Positions 22,675 through 29,525 of a stretch of DNA of 64,000 nucleotides are shown here, one piece after another (the stretch's first letter is position 1; each line of letters starts with the position of its first letter). Under the pieces are notes generated by a model. That model was not told the DNA's origin. It did no database searches and saw only the letters and a program-made list of their open reading frames with translations. The DNA is from Acidobacteriaceae bacterium (GTDB lineage Bacteria; Acidobacteriota; Terriglobia; Terriglobales; Acidobacteriaceae). The position numbers and the translations under genes were made by a program. The stretch lies in assembly GCA_030037545.1 (NCBI GenBank), contig JASHRF010000063.1:1-64000 (forward strand), in the 5' to 3' direction.

Positions 22675-22703
22675 TTGACAGCACGCGGTATTTCCCGTAG
22701 CTT
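22675..22703 (+). promoter_or_regulatory. Candidate sigma-70 promoter of the his operon
   Basis: TTGACA (22675-22680) is followed after 17 bases by TAGCTT (22698-22703). It lies nine bases before the His leader peptide start. The -10 is imperfect, and the leader start is close to the expected transcription start, so the leader mRNA would have a short 5' end. Confidence 0.45.
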
Positions 22704-22711
22704 GAGAAGAG

Positions 22712-22789
22712 ATGCAAATCCTCCGCCATAACGGTCATCACCATCATCATGGGACCTCCATGCCGGCGGACTGCGATGGCCTGAGCTAA
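22712..22789 (+). CDS. hisL: Histidine operon leader peptide (25 aa, six His codons)
   Basis: ATG 22712 opens a 25-codon peptide, MQILRHNGHHHHHGTSMPAD then CDGLS, with one His codon followed by a run of five. A terminator hairpin follows 28 bases downstream, before hisI. This is the standard layout of histidine attenuation: stalling at the His codons when charged tRNA-His is scarce prevents the terminator from forming. AGAAGAG upstream can serve as a ribosome site. It is unusual to see the tRNA-His gene itself in the same operon. Confidence 0.9.
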   Translation: MQILRHNGHHHHHGTSMPADCDGLS

Positions 22790-22817
22790 TCGGCCAGAGA
22801 GATCGAAAAGAATCATC

Positions 22818-22850
22818 AGCCCGCCGGCGACCATGCCAGCGGGCTTTTTT
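22818..22850 (+). terminator. Attenuator terminator of the his operon
   Basis: AGCCCGC (22818-22824) pairs with GCGGGCT (22839-22845) across a 14-base loop, followed by TTTTTT. The proximal loop sequence can compete for pairing with the region after the His codons. Confidence 0.88.
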
Positions 22851-22882
22851 ATGCTGGAAAATCTAAACCAAGGAATGAAATC

Positions 22883-23242
22883 GTGGAACGCATCGACTTC
22901 GACAAAATGGATGGACTCGTGCCGGGCATCGTGCAGGATGCGCGCAGCGGCGAGGTTCTGATGCTCGGCTTTCTCAACCCAACGAGCTATTCGAAAACTC
23001 TCGAAACCGGCTTTGTCACTTTCTGGAGCCGCACCCGCCAGAAGCTGTGGATGAAAGGCGAAACCAGCGGCAATCGTCTGCGCATCGTCTCTGCTTCGAC
23101 CGATTGCGACCACGACACATTGCTCTTCCGCGTGGAGGTGGAGGGCGACGGCCTGGTCTGCCACGAGGGCACCGTGAGCTGCTTTACGCTTCCTGTCACG
23201 CTGGAACCAAAGCCCGAAGCAGGGGAGGTGCCTCGTGGCTAA
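22883..23242 (+). CDS. hisI: Phosphoribosyl-AMP cyclohydrolase
   Basis: Third step of histidine synthesis: opens the adenine ring of phosphoribosyl-AMP. The 119-residue protein has the family core [20 protein letters not shown], the metal-binding [14 protein letters not shown] (often DCDGDTLL) and the zinc cysteines in [11 protein letters not shown]. There is no HisE domain, so the preceding pyrophosphohydrolase step must be encoded elsewhere. GTG 22883 follows AAGGAAT. The gene overlaps hisG by eight bases. It is the first structural gene after the attenuator. Confidence 0.95.
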
Positions 23243-24107
23243 GCTTCGTCTCGGAATTCCCAAGGGCAGCCTGCAGGACGCAACCATCGCGCTTTTCCGC
23301 CGGGCTGGCTGGAATATCTACGCCGACGGCCGCTCTTATTTCCCATCCATCGACGACGTGGAGATCGAGTGCATGTTGATTCGCGCTCAGGAGATGGCGC
23401 GCTACGTCGATCACGGCGTGCTCGATGCGGGCCTCACCGGCATTGACTGGGTAGTGGAGAGCGGCTTGGACGTTGCCAGCGTCACCACCCTCACTTACGC
23501 CAAGCAGAGCCGCCGCAAAGTGCGCTGGGTGCTGGCCGTTCCTGAATTGAGTGGATTTGAGAAGGCCGAGGATCTCGAAGGTAAAATCATCGCCACGGAA
23601 CTGGTGGAGGTGAGCAAGCGATATTTCGCAGCGAAGGGCGTAAACGTGAAGGTCGAGTTCAGCTGGGGCGCAACGGAAGTGAAGCCGCCCATGCTGGCCG
23701 ACGCCATCGTGGAAGTGACCGAGACCGGCAGCTCGCTCAAGGCCAACCACCTGAAAATCATCGACACGGTGATGGAGAGCGAAACGCATCTCATCGCATC
23801 GAAGGCCGCGCTTGCCGATCCGTGGAGGAAGCAGAAGATCGATCAGATTGCGACCATGCTGCGCGGCGCCATCGATGCGCAGGCGCAGGTGGGCCTGATG
23901 CTCAACGTGCGCCGCTCCGATCTTGAGGCCGTGCTCGCCGTGTTGCCAGCGCTCAACTCGCCGACCATTTCGCAATTGAGCGATTCGGAGTGGGTGGCCG
24001 TGAACACCATTCTGGAAGAGCGCGTGGCGCGCGATGTGATTCCGCGGCTGAAGGCGGCGAAGGCTGCAGGCATTGTGGAGTATCCGCTCAACAAGGTTGT
24101 GCTGTGA
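23235..24107 (+). CDS. hisG: ATP phosphoribosyltransferase, long form
   Basis: First committed step of histidine synthesis. At 290 residues it is the long HisG with its own C-terminal regulatory domain (ACT-like, about residues 215-290, [20 protein letters not shown]), so no HisZ is needed. The start [20 protein letters not shown] and the PRPP loop region [20 protein letters not shown] are diagnostic. GTG 23235 follows GGGGAGG and overlaps hisI. Feedback inhibition by histidine is expected from the family. A tRNA-His gene lies directly downstream. Confidence 0.95.
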
Positions 24108-24130
24108 TTCGTCTTGCAGATCAAATTTGC

Positions 24131-24206
24131 GGAGTCTGTGGCCGAATGGTTTAGGCACAAGGTTGTGGCCCTTGCTATCCGAGTTCAATTCTCGGCAGAC
24201 TCCCCA
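24131..24206 (+). tRNA. tRNA-His (anticodon GUG) inside the his operon
   Basis: Cloverleaf: G-1 plus acceptor GAGTCTG pairs with CAGACTC and C73, followed by encoded CCA (24204-24206). The anticodon stem CAAGG/CCTTG encloses loop TTGTGGC with anticodon GTG. The T-arm is CCGAG-TTCAATT-CTCGG. The extra 5' G opposite C73 is the tRNA-His identity mark. It is on the same strand as, and between, hisG (ends 24107) and hisD (starts 24311), so the his transcript probably contains it. Confidence 0.93.
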
Positions 24207-24228
24207 AAGGAATTGTTTGGTGTGAAGG

Positions 24229-24282
24229 GTACGGGCTTTAGCCCGTACATCCAGCAGCCAGAACAAAGGGGCTTTAGTCCCT
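24229..24282. repeat. Palindromic repeat pair between tRNA-His and hisD
   Basis: GTACGGGCTTTAGCCCGTAC at 24229-24248 is a perfect 20-bp palindrome. AGGGGCTTTAGTCCCT follows at 24267-24282. The same pair, with the first palindrome identical, lies in the start of hisC at 25615-25672. Such units may limit polarity or act as RNA-processing hairpins releasing the tRNA. Confidence 0.88.
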
Positions 24283-24310
24283 GAGAGAATGCGCACCAGG
24301 GGAAGATTCG

Positions 24311-25588
24311 ATGAAGCTCATCCGTACCCAAGGACGAAGCGCAGCACCAACCGCAGCCACAATCGCCGCGCTCGAGCAGCGTGACAGTTCGGTGCTCGAA
24401 GCCGTTCTGCCCGCCGTGCGCCGCATTGTGGCCAATGTGCGCCGCGGCAGCGATCGCGCGCTGCTCCGCTACGCCGCGCAATTTGACGGGCTGGCAGGAC
24501 CGGAGCGGTTGCGCGTCACGCAGGAAGAAATGGCTGCTGCGTGGGACGCGCTCGATCCGCAGTTGCGTGCGGCCCTCAGCACTGCAGCGGCGCAGATTCG
24601 CGCCTTCGCGCGCCGCCAGCTTCCGAAACCGTGGAGCGCATCACCCATCTCCGGCCTCACCACGGGGCAACTCGTGCGCCCGCTTAATGCTGTCGGCTGC
24701 TACGTGCCCAGCGGCCGTCATCCGCTCCCTTCTACGCTGCTGATGACCGCGATCCCCGCGCGGGTGGCTGGTGTTTCGCGCATCGTGGCGGTTTCGCCCC
24801 GTCCAGCGCCTGCAATTCTTGCCGCTGCGCACCTGCTCGGCATTACGGAGTTCTATCGCCTGGGCGGTGCGCACGCCATCGCCGCGCTGGCCTACGGCAC
24901 GCCAGCCATTGCGCGCGTGGATAAAATCGCCGGCCCCGGCAATCTCTACGTCACCGCGGCCAAGCGCCTGGTTGCCTTTGACTGCGCCATCGATATGCTG
25001 GCCGGTCCAACCGAGATCATTGTCACCAGCGAGCGCGGCAATGCGGGCGAAATCGCCTCCGATCTTGTTGCGCAGGCCGAGCACGATCCCGAGGTGCTGG
25101 CCACCTTCATCACTACGCGCACCGATCTGGCGAAAGAAGTGCTCACCGAGACGAAGAAGCGCAGCCGTAGCAATCCCATCGCGCGCGAATCGCTGCGCCG
25201 CAATGGGCTCGTGATTCTCGCATCCAGCCGCGATGAGGTTCGCGCAATTACAAATCGCCTGGCGCCTGAACACCTCACTGTCGATTCCGCCGCCGATCTC
25301 GCTTGGGTGACCAACGCCGGCTCGGTGTTTATCGGCCGCTGGTCCGCGCAGCCCATGGGCGATTATATTTCCGGGCCTAATCACACGCTGCCCACCGGCG
25401 GCATGGCGCGCGTGCGCGGCGGCTTGAGCGTGAACGATTTCGTGAAGCTCATCACCGTGCAGGAATACACGCAGCAGGGTTTGCATGCGCTCGGCCCCAA
25501 GGCCGCGTTGCTGGCCGAGGTGGAAGGTCTCACCGGACATGCCGATGCGATCCGCACGCGTCTCAAGCCAAGGAGGCCCCGTGGCTGA
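24311..25588 (+). CDS. hisD: Histidinol dehydrogenase
   Basis: Catalyses the last two oxidations, L-histidinol to L-histidine, with zinc and NAD+. The 425-residue length is typical. Visible signatures: GCYVPSGRHPLPSTLLMTAI (NAD-binding region), the DKIAGPGNLYVTAAKR segment, AGPTEIIVTSE, QAEHDPEV, and the catalytic/zinc region SGPNHTLPTGGMARVRGGLS. ATG 24311 follows AGGGGAAG. It overlaps the start of hisC by eight bases. Confidence 0.95.
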   Translation: MKLIRTQGRSAAPTAATIAALEQRDSSVLEAVLPAVRRIVANVRRGSDRALLRYAAQFDGLAGPERLRVTQEEMAAAWDALDPQLRAALSTAAAQIRAFARRQLPKPWSASPISGLTTGQLVRPLNAVGCYVPSGRHPLPSTLLMTAIPARVAGVSRIVAVSPRPAPAILAAAHLLGITEFYRLGGAHAIAALAYGTPAIARVDKIAGPGNLYVTAAKRLVAFDCAIDMLAGPTEIIVTSERGNAGEIASDLVAQAEHDPEVLATFITTRTDLAKEVLTETKKRSRSNPIARESLRRNGLVILASSRDEVRAITNRLAPEHLTVDSAADLAWVTNAGSVFIGRWSAQPMGDYISGPNHTLPTGGMARVRGGLSVNDFVKLITVQEYTQQGLHALGPKAALLAEVEGLTGHADAIRTRLKPRRPRG

Positions 25589-26765
25589 AAAAGGTGCAGC
25601 AATTCCAGCGATGGGTACGGGCTTTAGCCCGTACGACAGGGATCGCCAGAACTCCGGGGCTTCAGCCCCTGGGGGGAATTCCGCGAGCGGGTTTGGATCG
25701 CCCACTCCCCGCGCTCGCGTACAGGCGATGAAGGAATACCACCCGCCACTCGGCAGCCGCAACGCCCTGCGCCTGGACTTCAACGAAAACACGCTGGCCT
25801 GCTCGCCGAAGGTGCGCGAGGTGCTGGGCCGAATCTCCGCCGGCTCGCTCACCCGCTATCCCGAGCGCGAGCCGGTGGAAGCGATGGTTGCCGCGCATCT
25901 CGGCCTCAAGCCTGAGCAGGTAGCGCTCACCAACGGCGTCGACGAAGCGATTCACGTGCTTTTCGAAACCTTTCTCGAGACCGGCGACGAAGTGCTGCTG
26001 CCGGTGCCGACGTACACGATGTACGAGGTCTACGCATCGGCCACCGACGCGCGCGTGGTCACGGTGCTTGCCGGTGACGATCTGCAGTTTCCATTCGAGC
26101 GCCTGCTCGCCGCGGTCACGTCCCAGACGAAGATCATTGCCATCACCAATCCCAACAGCCCTTCCGGCGCCGCAGCCGCGCGGGAACAATTGCTCCAGCT
26201 CGCGCGCCACGCGCCGCAAGCCGTGCTGCTGGTAGATGAAGCTTACTTCCACTTTCATGGCGAAACCGTGATGGATTTTGTCGGTACGGTGCCAAACCTC
26301 GTGGTGGCGCGCACGTTTTCGAAAGCATATGGGCTTGCCGGTTTGCGCCTCGGATTGCTGGCCGGGCCCGCTGACCTGATGCGCTGGGTTCGTCGCGTGC
26401 TTTCGCCCTACAGCGTGAACTCGCTGGCGCTGGCCTGCCTGCCGCTGGCGCTTGAAGATAGGGCCTATCTCGACTGGTATGTGAGTGAAGTTCTCCGGGC
26501 GCGCGCTGATTTCGAGGCCGCTGTCGATGCGGTTGAGATTCGCCGCTGGCCCAGCCGCGCCAACTTTATCCTCGTCGATATTGGCGCGCGGCACACGGAG
26601 TTTGTGTGCCGGATGCGGGCCGCGGACGTGCTGGTGCGCGACCGCTCCAGCGATCCGGGATGCGACGGGCGCGTGCGCATCACCATTGGCACGCGTGAAC
26701 AGATGTTCAGCGCCATCACCGCCTTGAACAAAACCATGGCCGCGCTGCGTCTGGGAACGATGTAG
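25581..26765 (+). CDS. hisC: Histidinol-phosphate aminotransferase with a repeat-derived N-terminus
   Basis: PLP enzyme converting imidazole-acetol phosphate to histidinol phosphate. GTG 25581 has AAGGAGG five bases upstream and overlaps the hisD stop, so it is the likely start. Residues about 10-45 are read through the palindromic repeat and look non-native (GTGFSPYDRDRQNSG). The true fold begins near YHPPLGSRNALRLDFNENTL. Later come ITNPNSPSGA, LVDEAYFHF and the PLP lysine in ARTFSKAYGLAGLRLG. An alternative ATG at 25731 (MKEYHPP) would skip the repeat-derived leader. The aminotransferase core is complete. Confidence 0.93.
   Translation: MAEKGAAIPAMGTGFSPYDRDRQNSGASAPGGNSASGFGSPTPRARVQAMKEYHPPLGSRNALRLDFNENTLACSPKVREVLGRISAGSLTRYPEREPVEAMVAAHLGLKPEQVALTNGVDEAIHVLFETFLETGDEVLLPVPTYTMYEVYASATDARVVTVLAGDDLQFPFERLLAAVTSQTKIIAITNPNSPSGAAAAREQLLQLARHAPQAVLLVDEAYFHFHGETVMDFVGTVPNLVVARTFSKAYGLAGLRLGLLAGPADLMRWVRRVLSPYSVNSLALACLPLALEDRAYLDWYVSEVLRARADFEAAVDAVEIRRWPSRANFILVDIGARHTEFVCRMRAADVLVRDRSSDPGCDGRVRITIGTREQMFSAITALNKTMAALRLGTM
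25615..25672. repeat. Palindromic repeat pair inside the 5' end of hisC
   Basis: GTACGGGCTTTAGCCCGTAC at 25615-25634 is identical to 24229-24248. CCGGGGCTTCAGCCCCTGGG follows at about 25654-25673. Both are in frame within hisC if translation begins at the GTG with the good ribosome site. Confidence 0.9.
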
Positions 26766-26840: not shown

Positions 26841-27473
26841 ATGCCCGCGCAATCTAAATCATGCATCGGAAACGCCGGCGTCAAGTTCCGCACTGCATCC
26901 TTCGAGCGCAACACGACCGAGACGCAGATCGCTATCCGGCTCACCATCGAAGGCAAGGGCCGGTACAAAATCTCTACCGGCATCCGCTTCTTCGATCACA
27001 TGCTGGAGCTGTTCGCGCGCCACGGCGCCTTCGATCTCGAACTCACGTGCAAAGGCGATCTCGATGTCGACCAGCACCACACCGTGGAGGACGTCGGCAT
27101 CGCACTGGGCGAGGCATTCGACCGCGCCCTGGGAGACAAGCGCGGCATTCTGCGCGCCGGATATTTCCTGATGCCCATGGACGAGACACTCGCCATTGCG
27201 GCCATCGATCTGAGCGGACGAGCGGCTTTTGCGGTCGATGCCAAGGTTCGCACGCGATTGGTTGGAGATTTACAGACGGAGCTGGTGACGGATTTTTTTG
27301 AAGGCTTTGCGCGTGGCGCCCGCGCCAACGTGCACGTGAAGACCATGTACGGCCGCTCGAATCACCACAAGATCGAGGCCATCTTCAAGGCCTTTGCGCG
27401 CGCGCTGCGCGTGGCCTGCTCGCGCGACAAACAACTCGGCGACATGCTGCCGTCGACCAAGGGATTGCTCTGA
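26841..27473 (+). CDS. hisB: Imidazoleglycerol-phosphate dehydratase
   Basis: Mn-dependent dehydration of imidazoleglycerol phosphate. Monofunctional 210-residue form without the phosphatase domain. Metal-binding motifs are both present: [18 protein letters not shown] and [20 protein letters not shown], as is the [13 protein letters not shown] motif. The stop codon overlaps the hisH start (TGATG), which implies coupled translation. Histidinol phosphatase must therefore be encoded elsewhere; none is seen in this window. Confidence 0.96.
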
Positions 27474-28081
27474 TGCGCGTGACGGTGATCGACTACAAAG
27501 CCGGCAATCTCACCTCGGTGGTCAAGACACTGCGGCATCTGGGCGCGGAGACGGTTGTCACCGACGGCGATCTCGCACTGGTCGAATCCGCCGAGCGCAT
27601 CGTGCTCCCCGGCGTTGGCCACTTCGCGGCAACGGAGCGGCTCGACCAGACCGGGCTCAGCGGCGCGATTCGCACGGCGATTGCGCGCGGGGTTCCATTT
27701 CTTGGCATCTGCGTGGGCATGCAGTGGCTCTATGCGGGATCGACGGAGGCTCCGCAACAACCCGGCCTCGGCGAATTTCCTGAGATGTGCACGCGCTTCC
27801 CCGAAGGTCAGGAGAAAGTCCCGCATGTGGGGTGGAATTCCCTCGAAGTCCGCCCCGGCTCACGCCTGCTCGCCAACATTGAGCCGGGCGAATTCGTTTA
27901 CTTCACGCACTCCTATAAGGGTCCGGTCACTGCCGATACTGCAGCGGTCACGCAGTACATCGAGCCCTTCGCTGCCGCCGTCGAGCGCCTCAATGTGATG
28001 GGCGTACAATTCCATCCGGAGAAATCCGGCGAGACCGGCGTCAAAGTGCTGCAGAATTTTCTGGGGTTCAAACTATGTTGA
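27473..28081 (+). CDS. hisH: Imidazole glycerol phosphate synthase, glutamine amidotransferase subunit
   Basis: Supplies ammonia from glutamine to HisF. Class-I amidotransferase triad: Cys in [12 protein letters not shown], and His/Glu in [13 protein letters not shown]. The beginning [20 protein letters not shown] is typical. The gene overlaps hisB by one base and hisF by seven, fitting a stoichiometric HisH-HisF complex. Confidence 0.96.
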
Positions 28082-28854
28082 CCAAGCGCATCATCGCCTG
28101 CCTCGACGTGCATGCCGGCCGCGTGGTGAAGGGCGTGCAGTTCGTCGATCTCATCGACGCCGGCGATCCGGCCACGCAGGCCGCGCGCCATGCCCGCGAA
28201 GGCGCCGACGAAATCGTGCTGCTCGACATCACGGCCACGCACGAAGGGCGAAAGACGCTGCTCGACACGGTGCGGCGGACAGCGCGCGAACTATTTGTAC
28301 CGTTTTGCGTTGGCGGCGGCATCCGCACGGCGCGCGATGCGGAACAGGTGTTCGAGGCGGGCGCAGACAAGGTGAGCATCAATTCCGCAGCGCTCGCCGA
28401 TCCAGCGCTCATCGGCGCCATCGGCGCCAGCTTCGGCGTGCAGGCCGTGGTGGTTGCCATCGACGCGCGCCGCGATCGCGCGGCCGCCGATCCGGTGCGC
28501 GACGCGCAGGTTTTTGTCAACGGAGGCCGCAAACTCACGGGCCGCCGCGTGGTGGAGTGGGCACGTGAGGCTGAGCAGCGTGGTGCCGGAGAAATTCTGC
28601 TCACCAGCATGGACGCGGACGGTACCCGTGCCGGGTTCGACTGCGAGCTCACCGCTGCGGTCAGCGAGGCTGTCAGCATTCCGGTCATCGCCTCCGGCGG
28701 CGCGGGCACGGTGGCGCACTTTGCCGACGTCTTCGCGCGTGGCAAGGCAGACGCGGCACTGGCTGCCAGCATCTTTCATTTTGGGGTCTCCAGCGCGCGA
28801 TCTCTCAAGCAGGAACTGGCGCAGGTGGGGATTCCCGTGAGGCTCCCATGCTGA
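28075..28854 (+). CDS. hisF: Imidazole glycerol phosphate synthase, cyclase subunit
   Basis: TIM barrel that closes the imidazole ring and releases AICAR. The conserved start [20 protein letters not shown] contains the catalytic Asp11 equivalent. [10 protein letters not shown] holds the second catalytic Asp. The phosphate loops [10 protein letters not shown] and [12 protein letters not shown] are present. At 259 residues it is normal length. It overlaps hisH and hisA. Confidence 0.96.
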
Positions 28855-29525
28855 TCCCCTCTATCGATTTGATGGGCGGGCGTATCGTCCAGCTCGTGCA
28901 GGGCGAAAAGCTGCGCCTGGCCTTCGACGATTTCGAATACTGGATCGAAAGATTCTCGCGCTTTCCCATGGTGCAGTTGATCGATCTGGACGCGGCCATG
29001 CGCCAGGGTGACAACTCCGTGCTGGTGGAGCAGGTTACGAAACGCCTGCCCTGCCAGGTGGGCGGCGGCATCGACACTTCGGAGCGCGTGCGGCAAGTGC
29101 TCGACCGCGGCGCGCGGCGCGTGATTGTGGGATCGAAGCTCTTTACCGCCGATGGATTTGTGAACACCCAGTTTGCCGCTTCGCTCGCCGATGCCGTCGG
29201 GCTGGAGCAGATTGTTGCCGGCGTGGATACCAAAAACGGCCACATCGCGGTGAAGGGATGGAAGGAGCAGGTGGAGCTGACGCCCGATGACGCGATTCCG
29301 GTATTGGAGAAATATGTGGGCGCGTTTCTTTACACGCACGTGGACGGCGAGGGCTTGATGCAGGGCTTTCCCATGGACGTAGCCGCGCGGCTGCGCAAGC
29401 TCACCAATCGCCAGCTCATCGTGGCCGGCGGCATTCGCAGCCAGCAGGAAATCGATGATCTCGACGCCATGCGAGTGGATGCCGTGGCCGGGATGGCGGT
29501 GTATACGAAGCTGCTCGAAGTTTAG
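28848..29525 (+). CDS. hisA: ProFAR isomerase (phosphoribosylformimino-AICAR-P isomerase)
   Basis: Amadori isomerase of the fourth step, a TIM barrel homologous to His[21 protein letters not shown] contains the catalytic Asp8, and the phosphate loops [13 protein letters not shown] and [12 protein letters not shown] are visible. HVDGEG takes the place of the usual second Asp region THVDxDG. At 225 residues it is slightly shorter than most HisA. It is the last his gene; no terminator with a T-run is seen right after it. Confidence 0.92.

Follow-up and report, generated by a model that had tools for sequence, protein, structure and literature searches.

A solitary tRNA-His(GUG) gene of phage type lies inside the histidine operon of this soil acidobacterium, at positions 24131-24206 of the plus strand, between hisG and hisD (positions are those of the window, the whole stretch of 64,000 nt that was analysed). 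We consider it probable, with roughly two chances in three, that this gene was inserted into the operon, is made together with the his enzymes under the control of a histidine attenuator and occupies a site that is favoured for such insertions. The argument starts from what was observed, namely the position of the gene, its cloverleaf, the attenuator, the foreign nature of the tRNA and a second case in another species.

The operon displays the order hisI-hisG-[tRNA]-hisD-hisC-hisB-hisH-hisF-hisA on the plus strand, as assigned with Pfam: hisI (phosphoribosyl-AMP cyclohydrolase, 22883-23242; PRA-CH, 4e-29), hisG (ATP phosphoribosyltransferase with its C-terminal domain, 23235-24107; HisG and HisG_C), hisD (histidinol dehydrogenase, 24311-25588; Histidinol_dh, 5e-139), hisC (25485-26765 for the ORF as listed; Aminotran_1_2) and hisB, hisH, hisF and hisA (26841-29525; IGPD, GATase and twice His_biosynth). 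By inspection, the real start of hisC is likely further downstream, near MKEYHPPLG. The tRNA gene begins 23 nt past the hisG stop codon and hisD starts 104 nt past the tRNA. ARAGORN calls a tRNA-His(gtg) at 24132-24206 on the plus strand and Rfam RF00005 matches 24132-24203 with 59.1 bits, while position 24131 provides the extra G(-1) typical of tRNA-His, opposite C73. All four stems are paired throughout (7+3+5+5 pairs), the variable loop has 4 nt and the CCA end is encoded; folding within the mRNA context returned the identical cloverleaf and covariation across the tRNA set is in line with an intact tRNA-His. With its GUG anticodon, G-1:C73 pair and CCA, the gene thus has the marks of a bacterial-type tRNA-His at the sequence level, and a cloverleaf with this signature is no chance match. 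An earlier note had placed a tRNA-His gene here, on the coding strand, with hisG ahead of it and hisD behind, and ARAGORN, Rfam, G-1, CCA and the Pfam neighbours all bear this out.

When compared to the relative L004, the junction carries an insert of 117 nt (24108-24224, plus strand), made of 23 nt, the tRNA and 18 nt, which extends from the hisG stop codon to an intergenic palindrome shared with L004. These two short flanks, 39% GC, are the only extra sequence around the solitary tRNA, and there is no surrounding tRNA array or mobile element. The palindromic repeat, made of GTACGGGCTTTAGCCCGTAC and a second short hairpin, lacks a U-run (24229-24283, plus strand). A second copy of the GTACGGGCTTTAGCCCGTAC palindrome is found between hisD and hisC (25615-25690), the hairpin after the palindrome reads GGGGCTT(T/C)AG(T/C)CCC in the two copies within the operon, and variants of the repeat occur at the hisG|hisD junction of several relatives, e.g. 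L004, L007, L034 and L056. The 11-mer ACAAGGTTGTG is shared by the end of hisG (24091-24101) and the anticodon arm of the tRNA (24157-24167). Insertion through this microhomology was considered and set aside, the 11-mer lying away from the insert borders and being absent from the tRNA of the second case, so that it is probably due to chance.

In the genus of this bacterium, Occallatibacter/Terracidiphilus, the native tRNA-His gene is single, highly conserved and located outside the his operon, usually beside a divergent tRNA-Pro(UGG) gene with a small membrane-protein gene between them. The gene at 24131-24206 is 61-65% identical to the native tRNA-His of the genus and at most 65.8% identical to the sampled tRNA-His genes of the phylum. 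Its nearest relatives in the material examined are viral tRNA-His genes, with up to 79% identity in sets picked by patterns that tend to select for its type of D arm or variable loop, and these relatives mostly reside in arrays of 4 to 38 tRNAs. The gene and its viral relatives have in common a D arm of the form GGCCGA(A/G)TGGTTTAGGC (GGCCGA..GGTTTAGGC) and the 4-nt variable loop, while the anticodon loop differs from that of the native tRNA-His at one position only. Among the 28 tRNAs of the assembly, 27 find same-anticodon counterparts of 79-100% identity in three congeners; the tRNA-His, with 61%, is the sole outlier. A search of 79 congeners with this tRNA-His gave no match at E<=0.001, the 396 genomes searched across the phylum gave short partial matches only, and among phages, plasmids and viral contigs no near-identical donor was found, none exceeding 79%. 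Because the viral sets are biased by the patterns and cellular tRNA-His genes were sampled within the Acidobacteriota only, the claim is held to the class: judged by its sequence, and with Acidobacteriota as the cellular comparison, the gene is a foreign tRNA-His of phage/array type. It shares the sequence class, the 4-nt variable loop, the GGCCGA-type D arm and the missing close kinship with host tRNAs with the tRNAs of phages and of mobile tRNA array units (PMC10264068, PMC12803027), from which it differs in being solitary and embedded in a chromosomal metabolic operon. That it would be the cell's own tRNA-His, as previously supposed, does not agree with an identity of only 61-65% to the native gene, another locus and relatives of viral type. 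Relocation of the native gene into the operon was likewise ruled out, the sequence being unlike that of the native gene of the genus.

The operon is preceded by a histidine leader. A TTGACA box at 22675-22680, 37 nt before the leader start, is by position only a candidate -35 element of the his operon promoter, and a leader peptide ORF of 25 codons, MQILRHNGHHHHHGTSMPADCDGLS followed by its stop, spans 22712-22789. Attenuator segment 2 (22760-22773), which covers the Met-Pro-Ala-Asp codons, carries GCCGGCGG, and segments 3 and 4 form an intrinsic terminator, GCCCGCCGGCG...CAGCGGGC and a T run (22819-22851; GC-rich stem 22819-22844), all on the plus strand. GCCGGCGG could form a duplex with CCGCCGGC, which belongs to the 5' arm of the terminator, as an antiterminator, or alternatively with leader segment 1 (22718-22731) at the start of the leader. 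Sufficient sequence ahead of hisI is available for 78 loci; in 77 of them hisI is preceded by a leader that has no fewer than five His codons, the lone exception (L046) being at a contig end, and the terminator is found in 76; in most close relatives the leader peptide is near MQSHRHHGHHHHHGTSMPADCHGL. The RNAalifold consensus on the leaders was weak and the pairing of the segments was then tested directly, which revealed an antiterminator duplex of at least 7 bp in 66 of 74 loci, when shuffled arms average 5.3 bp. The leader ORF, the terminator and the competing antiterminator predicted from these pairings thus constitute a classical three-way attenuator. An Rfam scan of the leader/attenuator region returned no match; this his attenuator of acidobacteria (22675-22851; relatives L002-L081) is conserved without an Rfam counterpart. 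It resembles the enterobacterial hisL in the run of His codons, the 1:2 pairing, the 2:3 antiterminator and the 3:4 terminator ahead of the operon, but differs from it in the peptide sequence, in the lack of an Rfam match and in having hisI as first gene. We know of no tRNA gene inside the classical his operon. T-box systems link tRNA charging to amino-acid gene expression; the present arrangement would likewise couple tRNA charging to amino-acid genes, but here the sensor is a leader peptide and the operon itself would yield the tRNA.

A consensus scan between hisG and hisD, which is crude and could miss a promoter within hisG, found neither a sigma-70-like promoter on the plus strand nor a terminator. 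A weak -10-like TCAAAT lies at 24121-24126, just upstream of the tRNA; transcription from it would start inside the mature tRNA. Since no promoter or terminator isolates the gene, attenuator-controlled co-expression with the operon is the best reading of the sequence. Two further points of the earlier note hold: that the operon has a His-codon leader attenuator, which proved conserved across loci and classical in form, and that the tRNA would not be set apart by a dedicated promoter and terminator, none being found by the consensus scan. Escherichia coli offers examples of tRNA genes in protein-coding operons, metY-nusA and thrU-tyrU-glyT-thrT-tufB. As would be the case here, those tRNAs are freed by processing from a mixed transcript; they are, however, native tRNAs, and none of them lies in an attenuated operon for making its own amino acid.

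From these elements we infer co-transcription, processing, charging, regulation and benefit. A piece of about 117 bp with a solitary tRNA-His of phage/array type would have landed directly behind the hisG stop codon, and the tRNA, devoid of recognisable signals of its own, would be transcribed as part of the his mRNA. Its release would follow the usual processing, with RNase P acting at the 5' side and 3' processing at the encoded CCA, and would thereby leave hisIG and hisDCBHFA on separate pieces of mRNA. As the operon stands under a classical His-leader attenuator, output of the foreign tRNA should track the attenuator and occur mainly when ribosomes stall on the His codons, be it upon histidine shortage or because the native tRNA-His is lost or cleaved. 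The feedback loop proposed earlier, in which relief of attenuation raises tRNA-His itself, is possible, although specific to the lineage and conditional on co-transcription and charging. Since the native tRNA-His lies elsewhere in the genus, the tRNA raised by such a loop would be an additional one, and the inserted gene would be a conditional supplement and not the main supply.

The arrangement is not a general feature of the relatives. ARAGORN, BLAST and a covariance model able to detect remnants found no tRNA-His in the his loci of 80 named relatives, and 69 hisG|hisD gaps taken from whole genomes, for the most part those of the same relatives, show the same. The anticipated conservation of the hisG-tRNA-His-hisD order across Terriglobia thus did not materialise: the order is missing from about 80 relatives and recurs, with a different tRNA-His, in one congener. 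In this genome (G031) a tRNA-His at 3195-3270 of L140, minus strand, lies between hisG (4148-3285) and hisD (3122-1851), in sense orientation and 11 nt past the hisG stop codon. The his operon of G031 has its own His leader and terminator, and its native tRNA-His is retained on another contig (C18). The inserted tRNAs share 62% identity, their flanks are unlike, and their best viral relatives differ, at about 80% each. A HisI+HisG+HisD tree places G031 together with L036 and Terracidiphilus gabretensis, apart from the present genome (G000); the well-supported branches still require two changes. As the tree separates the carriers, two independent gains at hisG|hisD are likely, and by these comparisons the arrangement is not conserved by descent. 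An ancestral his-operon tRNA lost in most species is an unlikely origin, given the separate placement of the carriers, the 62% identity of their tRNAs and the lack of remnants.

The pattern with a 4-nt loop is matched in 17 of 398 genomes of the family, two of the matches not being tRNAs. Only two solitary phage-type tRNA-His genes were found in these 398 genomes, both at hisG|hisD; the other confirmed or checked ones of the family belong to arrays of 3-15 tRNAs away from the his genes, and the sole further confirmed tRNA-His that the pattern found in 386 genomes of the phylum also sits in an array. No tRNA-His gene within a his operon is described in the literature covered, which leaves out most subscription journals; the presence of phage-type tRNA-His genes, as classed by sequence, at the same his operon junction in two separate species is new, both cases coming from draft assemblies. 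Large arrays with divergent tRNAs were also seen in several genera of Acidobacteriaceae and one other acidobacterial family (L417-L437, L141, L438), and the recurrence of related tRNA-His types across them suggests mobile array units. As a separate observation, genomes G384, G250, G304, G116, G219, G447, G376, G470 and G153, of another acidobacterial family (f22), have, among the matches listed, a second tRNA-His-like match that ends in CACCCA; these second matches are unlike the main tRNA-His of those genomes.

Since different phage-type tRNA-His genes appear to have been gained independently at the same junction, the site would be favoured: a spare tRNA-His controlled by a His sensor may be of use there, or else the junction may take up inserts easily. 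The latter leads to the main rival, to which we give about one chance in four in our reasoning: a random foreign tRNA landed and was kept as a neutral passenger where it did no harm, through a loose hisG|hisD junction and luck. The gap ranges in relatives from an overlap to 580 bp and holds palindromic repeats or a small ORF, and only 2 of about 80 congeners have a tRNA there. The small ORFs include a family of 113 aa (L052:5892-6233, L011:5972-6313, with a remnant in L039) that has no Pfam match and is GIY-YIG-like by eye only; as the junction takes repeats and this ORF too, placement of the tRNA may be permissive instead of selected. A second random landing at the same one among some thousands of junctions is, however, improbable, and both inserts encode a tRNA-His whose cloverleaf is intact despite the divergence in sequence, and occupy the same junction of the histidine operon in sense orientation, while no other tRNA type occurs at hisG|hisD in about 80 loci.

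That the phage-type gene has replaced the native one as the sole tRNA-His, which would put the cell's main source of tRNA-His under the his attenuator as the earlier note pictured, seems doubtful. No further tRNA-His was found in this assembly, and the native locus of tRNA-Pro, small membrane protein and tRNA-His is missing from it. But the assembly is 88.7% complete and has no tRNA-Pro, Trp, Asp or Ile at all, although these too are essential, which makes it probable that the native locus lies in an assembly gap, and G031 keeps both a native and an inserted tRNA-His. Less likely still, the tRNA-like fold could be a non-translating regulatory or processing element that cuts or stabilises the his mRNA: its release between hisG and hisD would part the two messages, and hairpins lie 3' of the tRNA in both carriers, yet the GUG anticodon, G-1, C73 and CCA, needless for a mere cutting site, are kept in both unrelated copies, and relatives manage without such an element at this junction. 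An assembly artefact is very improbable, for although the tRNA is foreign in character and both genomes are drafts (128 contigs for G000, about 330 for G031), the his genes are continuous on both sides of it and the same architecture recurs, with another sequence, in a separately assembled genome.

Returning to an inserted tRNA-His co-made under the attenuator, tRNAs encoded by phages are known to help in escaping defences that cleave tRNAs (PMC10264068, PMC11555353), and because a His leader would respond to tRNA-His lost by cutting, an inducible spare is an attractive idea. Starvation, a tRNA-cutting toxin or an anti-phage nuclease would deplete the native tRNA-His, the leader ribosome would stall and the operon would open, so that a divergent and perhaps nuclease-resistant tRNA-His is produced alongside the histidine enzymes. 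Repeated domestication of phage-type tRNA-His genes as such a spare, with the attenuator sensing tRNA damage, is a speculative extension, to which we give perhaps one chance in five.

Altogether, these data document a conserved His attenuator across an acidobacterial genus and its neighbours, and indicate that tRNAs of viral type have settled singly, and twice, in the operon with which the host makes the matching amino acid, where the switch over the operon would sense whether that tRNA is charged. If co-expression is true, tRNA supply and amino-acid synthesis would be joined in a closed loop, a feature absent from the classical attenuation model, and amino-acid regulation would be connected, in a way that can be tested, to defences that target tRNAs.
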